Shown here: positions 1,463 through 18,221 of the stretch, in pieces
Numbering within the stretch: the stretch's first letter is position 1
Layout of the letters: each line of letters starts with the position of its first letter
Assembly: GCA_003229065.1 (NCBI GenBank)
Contig: QIHJ01000405.1
Location: 1 to 20,354 of the forward strand
Reading direction: 5' to 3'
DNA: 20,354 bases
Source of the DNA: Candidatus Dadabacteria bacterium
GTDB taxonomy: Bacteria > Desulfobacterota_D > UBA1144 > Nemesobacterales > UBA2774
The notes under the pieces: model-generated
What the model was told of the DNA's origin: nothing
Database searches by the model: none
What the model saw: the letters and a program-made list of their open reading frames with translations, nothing else
Position numbers and translations under genes: made by a program

Positions 1463-2845
1463 TTAAGGGGCGGTAATATCGTACTCTTCCAGTTTTCTTC
1501 TGAGAGTGAGGCGGTTGATTCCAAGTGTCCTTGCAGCCTGAGAGCGGTTCCAGCTGCTTGCGTTAAGCGCCTCTACGAGCATTATCCTCTCAGACTGTTT
1601 TATTATCCGGTCATAAACGTTTCCGCTGTTACCTGTGTTTATGAGCGCCCTTACGGATTCTCTAAGGGAGTCAGAATACGAAGCCGGCTCACCGATACTT
1701 TTATGTGCAGGTCTTAAATTGATATCCAGATCATAGGACGTTAGGTAGGGGGTTTTGGTAAAAGCGATTGCTTTACGTATTACGTTTTCAAGCTCCCTTA
1801 CGTTTCCTGGCCACTCATACTCCATAAGCATGTCCTGGAACTTGGCTGTTACGCCGTGTATATCCTTTCCTATCTGGTTTGCGTGTCTTCTGGTAAGACA
1901 TTCGGTCAGAAGCGGTATGTCTTCCTTCCTTTCCTTAAGAGCGGGAAGCTTTATATTTACAACGTTAATTCTGTAGTAGAGGTCCTCTCTGAAACTGCCC
2001 TGAGCGACAAGGACATCAATGTCCTTGTTCGTTGCCGTGATAATTCTTACGTCGACCGATTGCTCCGCGTTACTCCCGAGGCGGTGAAACGCGCCGTTCT
2101 GTAGCACCCGCAGCACCTTGGCCTGAAGGGAGAGCGACATGTCCCCGATCTCGTCCAGAAAAATTATGCCGCTGTCGGCCTCCTCGAACTTCCCGATCCT
2201 GGACGCATCGGCCCCCGTAAAAGCGCCCTTCTCAAAACCGAAGAGCTCGGCTTCAAGAAGGTTCTCGGGGATTGCGGCGCAGTTGAGGACTACAAAAGGC
2301 TTCTCCCACCTGGTGCTGACTTTCCATACGGACTCGGCCACAAGCTCCTTTCCCGTTCCGCTCTCGCCTGTTATGAGCACCGGGACGTCCACTCTGCCAA
2401 CCTGTCCGATGAGCTTACAAATTTCTTGGAGCATCGGAGAGTCCCCTACGATAGCGCATGTAACGCTTGAGCCCTCCACCTCGCCCGGAAACTGTATCAC
2501 ACGCTTTTTTGCCTCGCTATTAATGCCGAGGGCGCGGCTTACCGATTCGGCCAGGAGGGAAGTGCCGAGCGGTCTGAATATGCAGTCATACGCACCGAAA
2601 GTCATCGATTCGATCAGGTACCTGGCTCCTCTCTCAGCAGTTATTACTATTACAAATGCCTTTTTCTTCAAGCTGCTGAGTCCGCTCAACCCGACGCTAT
2701 CCACGTCCAATAGCAGGACGTCAGTGTCTTTGATATCGTCAATATTCTCAAAGACAGCAATGTCGATCGGGTCGAGTATACTGTTTATTTCCGCTATTAT
2801 TCCGGTATCTTTACTAAGTACCGATACTTTTCCATGTTCAGACAT
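1463..2845 (-). CDS. Sigma-54-dependent NtrC-type activator (AAA+/Fis HTH)
   Basis: An enhancer-binding protein that would use ATP hydrolysis to open sigma-54 RNA polymerase complexes. The 460 residues show a receiver-like domain (1-105), a central AAA+ domain (about 130-370) and a C-terminal Fis-type helix-turn-helix (about 430-456, NRSQAARTLGINRLTLRRKL). Walker A is GESGTGKE at 160-167, the sigma-54-contacting GAFTGA loop is at 207-212, and Walker B IIFLDE is at 227-232. WPGNVREL is at 345-352. The receiver keeps Asp47 (LLLDVDS) and Thr69, but the acidic pair at the end of strand 1 is replaced by Ser11-Lys12 and the conserved Lys by Arg91, so phosphorylation control is doubtful. No histidine kinase gene is adjacent. 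ATG 2845 follows an AGAGGA ribosome site. It is divergent from the cysP-cysH pair, whose upstream region carries a sigma-54 promoter, so that pair is the likely target. Confidence 0.95.
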   Translation of the reverse strand: MSEHGKVSVLSKDTGIIAEINSILDPIDIAVFENIDDIKDTDVLLLDVDSVGLSGLSSLKKKAFVIVITAERGARYLIESMTFGAYDCIFRPLGTSLLAESVSRALGINSEAKKRVIQFPGEVEGSSVTCAIVGDSPMLQEICKLIGQVGRVDVPVLITGESGTGKELVAESVWKVSTRWEKPFVVLNCAAIPENLLEAELFGFEKGAFTGADASRIGKFEEADSGIIFLDEIGDMSLSLQAKVLRVLQNGAFHRLGSNAEQSVDVRIITATNKDIDVLVAQGSFREDLYYRINVVNIKLPALKERKEDIPLLTECLTRRHANQIGKDIHGVTAKFQDMLMEYEWPGNVRELENVIRKAIAFTKTPYLTSYDLDINLRPAHKSIGEPASYSDSLRESVRALINTGNSGNVYDRIIKQSERIMLVEALNASSWNRSQAARTLGINRLTLRRKLEEYDITAP

Positions 2846-2868
2846 ATAGCATCCTCTGCTGTTACAAA

Positions 2869-2897
2869 AATATACAGGCTGATTAAAATATAATCAA
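2869..2897 (-). promoter_or_regulatory. Likely sigma-70 promoter of the sigma-54 activator gene
   Basis: Read on the minus strand, TTGATT (2897-2892) and TATATT (2874-2869) are separated by 17 bases, a good -35/-10 pair. Transcription would start near 2862, giving a leader of under 20 bases before ATG 2845. The -35 element lies inside the palindrome at 2880-2896, so a protein bound there would compete with polymerase. Prediction from sequence only. Confidence 0.45.
2880..2896. promoter_or_regulatory. Palindrome, candidate activator-binding site (UAS)
   Basis: TGATTA-N5-TAATCA is a perfect 17-base dyad. Its centre is about 63 bases upstream of the -24 element of the sigma-54 promoter, and it overlaps the activator's own -35 element. 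Enhancer-binding proteins with Fis-type helix-turn-helix domains usually bind such dyads upstream of the promoter they activate, so this site could serve activation of cysP and autorepression at once. AT-rich palindromes also arise by chance. Confidence 0.4.
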
Positions 2898-2949
2898 GGA
2901 CTTGCATTATCTAGTAGAAATACCGGCTCAAATCCCTTATATTGGCCCC

Positions 2950-2964
2950 TGGCACTTTAATTGC
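2950..2964 (+). promoter_or_regulatory. Sigma-54 (-24/-12) promoter upstream of cysP-cysH
   Basis: TGGCAC-TTTAA-TTGC matches the sigma-54 consensus TGGCAC-N5-TTGC exactly. The invariant GG (2951-2952) and GC (2963-2964) are separated by the required 10 bases. The start would fall near 2975, leaving about 70 bases of leader before the permease start codon at 3047. The only gene divergent from this site encodes a sigma-54 activator with an intact GAFTGA loop, which strongly supports the call. Confidence 0.77.
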
Positions 2965-3046
2965 CTATTCTATTCAAATTCGGAATCAATATATACAAAA
3001 TCGCTATCATAACCCTTATGCAATATTACTCACAGGAGATAAATAG

Positions 3047-4060
3047 TTGGAATTGATACTGCCAATAGCGCTTGTGCTCTCGGCGTTTCTGGCTCTCAAT
3101 ATCGGAGCTAACAATTCGGCTGCCGCAATGGCGACCTCCTACGGGGCAGGAGTGAGATCAAAGAGACAGGCTACGATACTGATTGCGGTGTTTGCATTGC
3201 TGGGCGCAGTAATAGCGGGCGCCCCGGTCGTAAGCACGATCGGAAAGGGGCTGGTGCCAAGCGAAGTGCTTTCCTCTCATGTGGGGCTTGTACTAATAAT
3301 ATTCGTAATCGCTATAATATTCGTCTCATGGGCCAATGTGGCGCGCGTGCCTATCGCTACGACGCACGCTATTGTGTGCGCCATAGCAGGCGTAGGGATA
3401 TATTCAAGCGCGCTGAACGGACAAAAATTTATAGAGATAGTCATATGGTGGATTTGCGCCCCCGTAATTGCCTGGGTTGTAAACTTCCTATTCGCAAAGT
3501 ACTTGTATTTCAGAACGCTTAAATATCTGACTGACCGTTACTCGGAGACGAGTATAAACCGGATTCTTACTATTCTGATTACGATTTCGGGTACGTTCCT
3601 GGCATTCTCGGCGGGAGCCAATAATTCGGCCAACGCTGTAGGTCCTATAGTGGGGCTCGGGCTGATCAGCTCATATTGGGGAGCCGTAATCGCGGGGGTG
3701 GCTATGGGCGTAGGAGCGATACTATTCGGAGGCAGGGTGCTTGACTCGGTGGGGAAGGAAATAACCGAGATTTGTATTTTAAGGGCTGTTTCAGTTGAAT
3801 TTACCGCGGCTGCGCTTATACTCGTAGCCTCTTTCTCGGGCATACCTGTATCTATAGCAGAGATCGTGACATCAGGTATAATTGGTTTTTCATGTGCTCA
3901 GCAGGGTTTTGGCGTAACGGCGCGAAACAGGCATGTGATGAGAATCGCGTTTTTCTGGATTGTGATTCCATTCATAGCCGTGGGTATGGGTTATGCATTA
4001 TCGTCCTTATATTTTAACTATAACATTGGCGAATTAATAAGTATGAGTATTGCTCATTAG
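3047..4060 (+). CDS. cysP: PiT-family permease, probable sulfate permease
   Basis: An integral membrane anion permease of the inorganic-phosphate-transporter family, most likely importing sulfate. The 337 residues are almost entirely hydrophobic helices arranged as an inverted repeat. The family signature occurs twice, as GANNSAAAMA (20-29) and GANNSANAVGP (190-200). True phosphate carriers typically have GAND at this place; the NN form and the context AFSAGxNNxANAVGP match what I recall of Bacillus CysP sulfate permease, as does the short length (about 350). The next gene is cysH, and cysH-cysP pairing is known from Bacillus. TTG 3047 is chosen because an AGGAGA ribosome site lies 8 bases upstream and the MELxxP start resembles CysP. 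A sigma-54 promoter lies 80-100 bases upstream. Substrate (sulfate, thiosulfate or phosphate) is inferred, not proven. Confidence 0.85.
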   Translation: MELILPIALVLSAFLALNIGANNSAAAMATSYGAGVRSKRQATILIAVFALLGAVIAGAPVVSTIGKGLVPSEVLSSHVGLVLIIFVIAIIFVSWANVARVPIATTHAIVCAIAGVGIYSSALNGQKFIEIVIWWICAPVIAWVVNFLFAKYLYFRTLKYLTDRYSETSINRILTILITISGTFLAFSAGANNSANAVGPIVGLGLISSYWGAVIAGVAMGVGAILFGGRVLDSVGKEITEICILRAVSVEFTAAALILVASFSGIPVSIAEIVTSGIIGFSCAQQGFGVTARNRHVMRIAFFWIVIPFIAVGMGYALSSLYFNYNIGELISMSIAH

Positions 4061-4074
4061 ACGGTGCGCCCGTT

Positions 4075-4896
4075 GTGCGGGCTGTAAAATTACGGAGGTG
4101 CTTTGCAATTAGCGCTGAGCAGAATTTATCTAAAGATTCTCTGAGTTCGGAAAACGCCGGCATCAGGTTTAATGCCGAGCAGGTTCTAAAGCTCAACCGG
4201 GATTATAAAGACAAAAGCCCCAAAGAGGTGCTCAAGTGGGCTGTGGAAACCCTGCACCCGAGGCTGGCTCTGGCATCGAGCTTTCAGTCCCAAGGTGTCG
4301 TGCTTATAGACATGCTCATGAAAGTGAGCAGTGAAGCCAGGATTTTCACTCTCGACACAGGAAGGCTGAACCAGGAAACCTATGACGTTATGGACAGAGT
4401 AAGGAGCCGCTACAACACTCAGATCGAGGTGCAGTTCCCGGATAAAGACGAAGTGGAAAAGATGGTCACCGAGCGCGGTATGAACCTCTTTTACAAAAGT
4501 AAGGAAAACAGGTTCTTATGCTGTGAGATGAGAAAAGTAAATCCGCTCAAAAAGTTCCTGATCGGTCTTGACGGTTGGGTAACCTCGATCAGACGGGGAC
4601 AGACCGAGAACAGGGCCCATGCCGCAAAGTTTGAAATAGACGAGCTTCACGGCGGTATATTAAAAATTAATCCCCTTGTTGACTGGACTACGGAGCAGGT
4701 CTGGGACTACATAAATGAGCACCAGGTCCCATATAACAAGCTGCACGATCTGGGTTACCCCAGTATCGGATGCGCCCCGTGCACCAGGGCCGTAAAACCA
4801 GGTGAGGACGCAAGGGCGGGCCGCTGGTGGTGGGAAAGCGATTCAGATAAGGAGTGCGGTCTCCATATAGATCACCAAATTAATGTACCTATGTAA
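4075..4896 (+). CDS. cysH: Adenylylsulfate (APS) reductase, thioredoxin-dependent
   Basis: Reduces activated sulfate to sulfite with thioredoxin in assimilatory sulfate reduction, in the cytoplasm. Motifs, numbered from GTG 4075, are SSFQSQG (68-74) in the adenylyl-pyrophosphatase fold, LDTGRLNQETYD (93-104), SIRRGQTENRA (171-181), the cysteine pairs Cys149-Cys150 and Cys233-Cys236 that ligate a [4Fe-4S] cluster, and the catalytic ECGLH with Cys261. The four cluster cysteines point to APS rather than PAPS as substrate. The start is uncertain. GTG 4075 lies 15 bases after the permease stop with no ribosome site, while a strong GGAGG at 4094-4098 sits 9 bases before an in-frame ATT at 4108; no ATG, GTG or TTG is in frame near it. 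Either start leaves the whole domain intact. It is in an operon with the permease; no sat or cysC gene is seen here. Confidence 0.93.
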   Translation: MRAVKLRRCFAISAEQNLSKDSLSSENAGIRFNAEQVLKLNRDYKDKSPKEVLKWAVETLHPRLALASSFQSQGVVLIDMLMKVSSEARIFTLDTGRLNQETYDVMDRVRSRYNTQIEVQFPDKDEVEKMVTERGMNLFYKSKENRFLCCEMRKVNPLKKFLIGLDGWVTSIRRGQTENRAHAAKFEIDELHGGILKINPLVDWTTEQVWDYINEHQVPYNKLHDLGYPSIGCAPCTRAVKPGEDARAGRWWWESDSDKECGLHIDHQINVPM

Positions 4897-18103: not shown

Positions 18104-18221
18104 ATCTGGGTAGCAATGCTGAAGAGGTAACACCCGGTCCCATACCGAACCCGGAAGTTAAGCTCTTCGAGGCCGATGATACTGCTCTCTACGGGAGTGG
18201 GAAAGTAGGAAGCTGCCCTGG
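18104..18221 (+). rRNA. rrf: 5S ribosomal RNA
   Basis: The segment has the conserved 5S core GAAGAGGTAACACCCGGTCC, then CATACCGAACCCGGAAGTTA and AGCTCTTCGAGGCCGATGAT, with the typical GGGAGTGGGAAAGTAGGAA near the 3' end. The 5' ATCTGGGTAGC and 3' GCTGCCCTGGT pair as helix I, fixing the ends to within a few bases and giving about 118 nucleotides, the normal size. No 16S or 23S sequence is next to it: the neighbours are a recombinase gene and purN. Confidence 0.94.

Follow-up and report, generated by a model that had tools for sequence, protein, structure and literature searches.

Assimilatory sulfate reduction is, in the textbook account, under the control of CysB, S-box or CymR. A connection of sigma-54 with sulfur nutrition is provided by SfnR of Pseudomonas putida, a sigma-54 activator for dimethyl sulfone use (Endoh 2003, 2005, as cited in the accessible parts of PMC8234197 and PMC13352529), and, according to the available text of PMC4676750, aliphatic sulfur sources are used under RpoN control by some bacteria but not by Ralstonia, whose rpoN mutants grow normally on them. 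In the accessible portion of a study of the Desulfovibrio sigma-54 regulome, sulfate uptake, sulfate transport and cysteine are absent as terms, and nine operons carry transporters of the TSUP or putative sulfate-export families with substrate unknown (PMC4641369); the available text of a paper on marine Dadabacteria does not mention sigma (PMC8115339). Across the literature on sigma-54 or RpoN with sulfur, for the most part as represented in listings, we found no account of sigma-54 control of sulfate uptake or cysH. Here we describe a 20,354-nucleotide stretch of Candidatus Dadabacteria contig QIHJ01000405.1 (GCA_003229065.1, forward strand; hereinafter the window, meaning the whole stretch analyzed), in which a predicted sigma-54 promoter precedes genes for a predicted sulfate permease and an adenosine phosphosulfate (APS) reductase, cysH, opposite a divergent gene for a sigma-54 activator. 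Comparative sequence analysis makes it very likely that this is a dedicated activator that drives the permease and APS reductase genes via a tandem enhancer, and supports the view that a canonical sigma-54 activator and promoter have here been put to assimilatory sulfate uptake and reduction, a use without precedent in the literature searched.

A 201-base-pair (bp) gap separates the leftward activator gene from the rightward permease-cysH pair (Table 1). Within it lies TGGCACTTTAATTGC (2950-2964, plus strand), the window's only exact match to TGGCAC-N5-TTGC, which conforms to the sigma-54 pattern TGGCAY-N5-TTGC with GG and GC at -24/-12. Scoring matches over 10 positions, with C or T accepted at position 6, we found that 300 dinucleotide shuffles of this gap yielded a match of at least 9/10 in 1.7% and one of 10/10 in none. 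The window as a whole holds seven matches with up to two mismatches to TGGCAC-N5-TTGC against a mean of 13.0 in shuffles, fewer than expected by chance, and the whole assembly (about 80% complete, 446 contigs, with rpoN present) holds 12 sites of TGGCAY-N5-TTGC against five for the reversed pattern. Because near matches are rarer in the window than in shuffles, the motif by itself is weak evidence, and we rejected it as proof on its own. An earlier note, made from the sequence alone, had pointed to this exact motif upstream of a CysP-type permease and an APS-reductase-type cysH, and to a divergent GAFTGA-bearing sigma-54 activator; all these parts were recovered, the activator with Sigma54_activat, AAA lid and Fis-type helix-turn-helix (HTH) domains beside its GAFTGA motif, and the permease through a best NCBIfam match to the sulfate permease CysP (NF053884) that nevertheless falls below the cut-off (235.7 vs 400 bits).

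Conservation was assessed across 57 genomes of the class, from which the activator loci were extracted and mapped. An ortholog of the activator (E <= 1.1e-167; next match 8.2e-97) occurs in 26 of the 57, spread over six families and 15 genera, and a permease gene, whole or partial, adjoins it in 24 of these 26 loci. In the other two (G008 and G010), the permease is not beside the activator and the promoter faces cysH; G010 lacks the permease, and its enhancer and sigma-54 module stand directly before cysH with the activator start opposite, all on one contig. The contigs of G017 and G025 stop short of the expected position of cysH. As a separate observation, G032 (locus L082), G008 (L083) and G010 (L097), in which the permease is truncated or absent, retain activator, enhancer and sigma-54 promoter before sat or cysH. 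Scoring of 24 activator gaps (G008 limited to 260 bp; G001, whose permease is split, cut to 134 bp) gave a sigma-54 match of at least 9/10 in 22, against 0.21 expected by shuffling, and of 10/10 (C or T at position 6) in 20, against 0.01 expected; the site is present too in G010 and G032, whose gaps are not intact and stand outside the 24, so that 24 of the 26 loci reach 9-10/10. In contrast, among the 29 further genomes without an activator ortholog, 14 supplied permease upstream regions (last 250 bp), and none of these reaches 9/10. Two genomes without an ortholog, G014 and G004, were counted on neither side: the former has cysH just as a fragment where a contig ends, and in the latter cysH was not found, for which reason their locus may be unassembled. 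The rpoN gene was detected in 54 of the 57 genomes. The earlier note had proposed seeking the activator/cysP/cysH arrangement in relatives and had staked its case on conservation of the motif in orthologous gaps; the arrangement recurs and the motif is conserved in the proportions just given, and the idea of a dedicated activator for the pair gains support from this co-occurrence and from a conserved tandem element at a near-fixed distance, described below, of which the note made no mention.

These comparisons bear on the alternative that permease and cysH are read from an ordinary sigma-70 promoter, the -24/-12 match being due to chance. A TAGAAA-17-TATATT match does lie at 2915-2943 (plus strand), and lineages without the activator must express the pair without it; however, that match, judged by eye, is not conserved in the alignment beyond G001, whereas the -24/-12 site is kept at near-fixed spacing in loci of 15 genera, amid a gap that has otherwise diverged, and we accordingly give this alternative very little credence.

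The gap alignment revealed a further block, beside the activator start codon, that is conserved at least as well as the promoter. Two units of 17 bp each make up this block, site A (TGTaACAAAAaTATACA) and site B (TGaTTA-N5-TAATCA). It is found at all 26 activator loci, with a spacer of 3 bp in every locus but that of G010, where it is 2 bp; from site B to the sigma-54 site there are 50-55 bp in 22 of the 26 (64, 72, 98 and 98 bp in the rest). In the window, the centers of sites A and B precede the predicted transcription start (2976) by about 108 and 88 bp, respectively, distances that are usual for a sigma-54 enhancer. Site B is palindromic (correlation of its matrix with its own reverse complement, r = 0.84) and site A is not (0.25). 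This tandem element is very probably the activator's enhancer. Site B with the A that follows it is the sole match to TGNTTA-N5-TAATCAA in the window's assembly; over the 57 genomes this pattern matches 49 times (a few matches being counted on each strand) and its reversed control 22 times, and we set the palindrome alone aside as weak evidence. A loose pattern, TAATCA followed after 35-65 bp by a sigma-54 site, yielded 61 matches against two for the reversed control, with at least one in each activator genome, exactly one in the window's genome (that in the window), and, outside the activator genomes, only those in G014 and G045 (two each). This contrast is unclean, since reversal abolishes the sigma-54 motif as well, and it partly reflects genome size, activator-less genomes being for the most part small, with few sigma-54 activators. 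The 61 comprise 20 activator loci, four ssuA genes, four beta-carbonic anhydrase genes and 33 others, mostly without the palindrome, in which TAATCA probably just happens to lie upstream of a different sigma-54 promoter. Spacing provides a cleaner, independent control. Among the 60 distinct strings, those with a fitting left half-site (at least 5/6) show a spacing of 50-55 bp in 24 of 25 cases, and those with an unfitting one (at most 3/6) in five of 30, close to the share that a uniform distribution over the allowed 35-65 bp would yield. Lastly, a site-B matrix built from the 26 permease or cysH sites was scored 45-65 bp before 117 distinct sigma-54-like sites in the extracted loci, which cover only parts of the genomes. 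A score of at least 10 was attained at 20/24 permease promoters and 1/1 cysH promoter (a circular result, these being matrix sources), at 5/9 ssuA and 5/9 beta-carbonic anhydrase promoters, and at 1/74 of all others, namely the activator-cysH locus of G008; the 74 form a harder control because part of them entered the set for containing TAATCA.

On the minus strand, TTGATT-17-TATATT lies within sites A and B, with site A holding the -10 hexamer. An arrangement of this type is the best-scoring sigma-70 pair in 18 of the 26 loci (with TTGATT itself in 16), and promoter-like sites in the activator upstream region number three against 1.6 expected, which is weak by itself. This is likely to be the sigma-70 promoter of the activator gene and, since the enhancer overlaps it, the activator bound there probably also restrains its own synthesis. 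We considered whether site A is nothing more than the activator's -10 box. This probably holds for part of it, and site B has a clearer role than site A at promoters elsewhere. By extension, the entire element might be only the activator's promoter, with the activator of the permease binding elsewhere or being a different sigma-54 activator: the TTGATT pair fits the element and would explain the fixed 3-bp spacing, and the window's genome has at least five other related activators. A sigma-70 promoter, however, has no need of the palindromy of site B, and B-like palindromes stand at 6/6 beta-carbonic anhydrase promoters and three ssuA promoters of family f4 with no activator gene beside them in the loci examined; we thus consider this explanation improbable.

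Palindrome matches elsewhere in the relatives furnished the first targets outside the locus and opened up a wider set of sulfur targets than the earlier note had envisaged. A protein of the SsuA family (TIGR01728, above cut-off), searched for regardless of promoter, is encoded in nine of the 57 genomes. All nine upstream regions carry a perfect TGGCAY-N5-TTGC 34-71 bp before the gene, and seven have a site-B-like palindrome (at least 9/12) 43-62 bp above the sigma-54 site, at 54 bp in three ssuA promoters of family f4. The operon further encodes a permease and an ATP-binding cassette (ABC) ATPase fused to a TusA-type sulfur-carrier domain; in L303 (1811-2899, minus strand) this domain is N-terminal, and L302, L304, L305 and L309 are alike by their similar sequence starts. 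Beta-carbonic anhydrase (PF00484) has seven close homologs in family f4, of which six have a sigma-54 promoter, each with a site-B-like palindrome (9-12/12) at 52-53 bp; in the accessible part of PMC2621215, a carbonic anhydrase gene is linked with sulfate uptake in many bacteria. In G008 (L301), two perfect sigma-54 sites with no good site B were also seen, at 1214-1228 and 2092-2106, upstream of tandem genes for a beta-carbonic anhydrase homolog and a MoeZ-like protein. ATP sulfurylase (Sat) is encoded between permease and cysH in the seven f4 genomes (the G022 protein, when checked, scored 583 vs a cut-off of 387 bits with NF003166); in G018 a NIR_SIR protein is encoded there as well, and in G045 (family f8, no activator) permease-cysH lies beside genes for sulfite reductase, CysD and CysN. 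No ssuA, beta-carbonic anhydrase homolog or Sat was detected in the window's own genome, leaving permease-cysH as the only detected target there. Several candidates were left out of the regulon. Those with a poor enhancer are MetY of G003 (score 6.6), a membrane-protein gene of G018 (9.2), MoeZ of G008 (-3.9) and genes of oxidoreductase type in both G013 and G006; another is a secreted-protein gene of G028 (L137), whose palindrome lies 72 bp before the sigma-54 site.

Both signature motifs of the window's permease, GANNSAAA and GANNSANA, have Asn in place of Asp, matching the substituted Asp in both GANDVANA motifs by which CysP is recognized. Every GAN[D/N] motif found in 36 homologs likewise has Asn and none Asp (in G022 and G016 one motif only was matched, and the G001 protein is partial); the Asp is described as needed for phosphate in the available text of PMC5840216. 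The protein thus appears to be a CysP-type sulfate permease of the PiT family. That it instead carries phosphate, its link to sulfur being accidental, might be argued from the Pfam family name (phosphate transporter), the below-cut-off CysP score and the fact that the only solved relative found by sequence is the phosphate transporter 6l85. This is scarcely credible in view of the Asn residues and of the neighbors, namely cysH and, in other families, Sat or sulfite reductase with CysDN. CysH itself has the signature of an assimilatory APS reductase, scoring 266.7 bits with TIGR02055 (cut-off 235.3) and showing the 4Fe-4S cysteines CC...CxxC in alignment with its closest solved sequence, the adenosine phosphosulfate reductase 2goy. 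Among the named-taxon records found to carry this cysH, Dadabacteria UBA2774 is the closest (89% identity); a metagenome-assembled genome (MAG) labeled as a Nitrosopumilales archaeon (L035) has a cysH with 64% identity to that of the window, perhaps on a mis-binned contig. We take the target genes to be sulfur genes because of Sat, CysH, SsuA, the CysDN neighbors and the GANN motifs of the permease.

The activator has the sequence features of the bacterial enhancer-binding proteins (bEBPs) of the NtrC family, namely an AAA+ domain (PF00158, 233 bits) with Walker A and GAFTGA motifs and a C-terminal Fis-type HTH (PF02954, 50.9 bits vs a cut-off of 22); G160 and S162-K166 of Walker A and G207 and F209-A212 of GAFTGA are invariant in 24 aligned sequences. 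Approximately residues 5-113 constitute a receiver-like domain (PF00072, 19.7 bits, below the cut-off of 30.2). In an AlphaFold model folded as the whole protein (mean predicted local distance difference test score [pLDDT] 76.9, predicted template modeling score 0.56), strands and helices occur here in receiver order, with a pLDDT of 70-89 in blocks over residues 1-120. Structure matches, in a list dominated by the AAA+ domain, include NtrC1 and NtrC4 of Aquifex over residues 5-375 (root-mean-square deviation 18-19 across mobile domains). Asp47, Asp49, Thr69 and Cys88 are invariant in all 26 activator sequences. At what we take to be the canonical receiver positions, the Lys is replaced in all 26 (Arg in 16, Asp in three, Ser, Gly and Leu in two each, Val in one) and the acidic pair is not conserved; hence, the domain departs from the response-regulator set of acidic pair, phospho-Asp, Thr/Ser and Lys. 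A crude motif scan recognized no histidine kinase motifs among the 318 open reading frames (ORFs) of the 26 activator loci. The likeliest reading is that the activator is not switched by an ordinary kinase, though a kinase encoded elsewhere in the genome may yet do so, and that the receiver-like domain would sense its cue by means other than ordinary phosphorylation. A word-based comparison of the N-terminal domain with 5.8 billion proteins returned 111 of them, all with the sigma-54 activator domain; the few with a named taxon are from MAGs of Dadabacteria, Deltaproteobacteria or Thermodesulfobacteriota, and one of Korarchaeota.

Table 1. Coordinates of the predicted sigma-54 module and its genes in the window
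Feature	Position	Strand	Basis
Sigma-54 activator (bEBP): receiver-like N domain, AAA+ with GAFTGA, Fis-type HTH	1463-2845	-	ORF, Pfam, ortholog alignments, AlphaFold model
Enhancer site A, TGTTACAAAAATATACA (predicted)	2860-2876	+	A-like unit in 26/26 activator loci
Enhancer site B, palindrome TGATTA-N5-TAATCA (predicted)	2880-2896	+	Conserved in activator loci
Likely sigma-70 promoter of activator gene, TTGATT-17-TATATT	2869-2897	-	Overlaps sites A and B
-24/-12 sigma-54 promoter, TGGCACTTTAATTGC	2950-2964	+	Exact motif, conserved; predicted transcription start ~2976
CysP-type permease (predicted), PiT family	3047-4060	+	Pfam, NCBIfam best match, GANN motifs
cysH, APS reductase type	4075-4896	+	TIGR02055, 2goy, CC...CxxC

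Activator, enhancer, spacing and promoter are conserved and occur together, and the targets are sulfur genes; from this we infer the following mechanism. The Fis-type HTH of the activator would bind sites A and B beside its own start codon, and its GAFTGA-bearing AAA+ domain would drive the sigma-54 RNA polymerase, in dependence on rpoN, at 2950-2964, resulting in transcription of permease and cysH. In some relatives the same enhancer-sigma-54 module would also drive beta-carbonic anhydrase, an ABC transporter of the sulfonate type and, as part of the permease operon, Sat; given these targets, the logic is most probably that of a response to sulfur limitation. Alternatively, promoter and activator are real and the cue is another, such as nitrogen, redox or general starvation, with the sulfate genes as one output. 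In favor of this, NtrC-type activators often read nitrogen or carbon status, the receiver-like domain gives no hint of a ligand, and the crude motif scan recognized no histidine kinase in the activator loci; but the targets with well-scoring enhancers are sulfur-linked or plausibly so (CysP-Sat-CysH, the SsuA transporter with its TusA-domain ATPase, beta-carbonic anhydrase), and nothing else scored 10 with the site-B matrix in loci that cover only parts of the genomes. A non-sulfur cue is, in our estimate, unlikely, if far from negligible. We tentatively raise the possibility of a sulfur-starvation regulon that extends over a large part of the class under sigma-54 and a single dedicated activator, encompasses sulfate and sulfonate uptake, sulfate activation and reduction and carbonic anhydrase, and is sensed via the degenerate receiver with its invariant Cys88 rather than a kinase; many members would rely on an unrecognized ATP sulfurylase to supply the conserved APS reductase.

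A number of observations weigh against the proposed sulfur-responsive module. At the promoter, G022 and G028 have a weaker CGGTAT...TTGC where the sigma-54 site is expected, G017 and G029 a site with one deviating base, and in G016 (88% complete) activator and promoter are present, yet rpoN was not found. Genomes without the activator tend to be small and to have few sigma-54 activators, so that part of the genome-level co-occurrence may follow from size. About half of the loose-pattern matches are without the palindrome, and in G008, G011, G017, G021, G025 and G029 the loose match lies away from the activator locus, whose element deviates or differs in spacing. Among the wider targets, the ssuA upstream regions of G034 and G003 have no recognizable site B, the site B of the G034 beta-carbonic anhydrase gene is poor (9/12, matrix score -2.2), and the G018 counterpart of this gene has neither sigma-54 site nor palindrome. 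A sigma-54 site precedes two of 15 more distant homologs, and in none of the 15 does the palindrome stand at the expected spacing. In the activator, Asp47 and Thr69 are kept, so the domain may still be phosphorylated. Finally, at E <= 1e-20 neither Sat nor CysD was found in the 34 genomes of families f1 (the window's), f5, f6 and f7, and no sulfite reductase (NIR_SIR) was found in the window's own genome, which leaves the sulfate pathway incomplete on paper. Yet cysH is present in 32 of these 34 genomes and NIR_SIR proteins in 29. Assembly gaps hardly explain the absence of ATP sulfurylase across 34 genomes, and these families may have either an unrecognized ATP sulfurylase or another source of APS for CysH. 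NIR_SIR proteins of about 720 amino acids, common across the order, were noted in L293 (5236-7407, minus strand) and L297 (5275-7425, plus strand), the former with no match past about residue 560 among the families shown.

The activator ortholog is missing from family f5 (two genomes) and from genus g10 of family f6 (13 genomes), and kept in G029 of f6. Neither rpoN nor the activator was detected in either f5 genome (G023, L102; G019, L101), both of which keep permease-cysH. In G040 (g10) and G023, pyrE immediately precedes the permease gene in the same orientation, as if activator and promoter had been deleted and the pair were read from upstream. Marine pelagic Dadabacteria are described as streamlined in the available text of PMC8115339, and g10, to judge from its genome sizes, may be one of these clades. 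In the window, pyrE lies two genes off, beyond the far side of the activator. The ORF between pyrE and the activator (531-1442), with SpaA-like and weak disintegrin matches, has no counterpart in the relatives' loci by tblastn at E <= 1e-8. Rfam searches of the whole window at gathering scores recovered no riboswitch and a 5S rRNA gene (18106-18221) as the sole match, with no further rRNA family.

If correct, the proposed mechanism would constitute another kind of control of sulfate assimilation, featuring several sulfur targets and a defined enhancer at a near-fixed distance, and would place an ATP-dependent on-off switch on sulfur supply. The enhancer motif could help find sulfur genes, perhaps including the missing ATP sulfurylase, in this uncultured group, and the loss of the activator from small-genome lineages that keep permease-cysH would amount to a natural experiment on the cost of regulation.

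Among known systems, NtrC1 and NtrC4 of Aquifex aeolicus and the NtrC family share with the window's activator the order receiver, AAA+ and Fis-type HTH and are among its best sequence and structure matches, but its receiver-like domain is without the conserved Lys or acidic pair. FleQ and VpsR are activators with receiver-like domains that act without ordinary phosphorylation; they too present an atypical receiver fold on a sigma-54-type activator and are among the structure matches, though their regulons differ. Enterobacterial CysB and Cbl similarly govern a sulfur-limitation regulon for sulfate and sulfonate use; however, they are LysR-type regulators working with sigma-70, in contrast to the AAA+ activator predicted to work with sigma-54 here. 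Likewise, Firmicutes rely on S-box or CymR control, whereas the CysP-type permease described here appears to be under a sigma-54 module. The permease otherwise resembles CysP of Bacillus subtilis in its PiT family membership and substituted Asp in the GANDVANA motifs (as given in the accessible text of PMC5840216). SfnR, like the activator of this locus, is a sigma-54 activator serving sulfur nutrition; unlike it, SfnR serves sulfone use and is itself, by the title of the report, CysB-regulated, whereas the targets predicted here are sulfate permease, APS reductase and Sat, joined in some relatives by an SsuA-type transporter, and a receiver-like domain and a divergent enhancer of its own set the activator apart.

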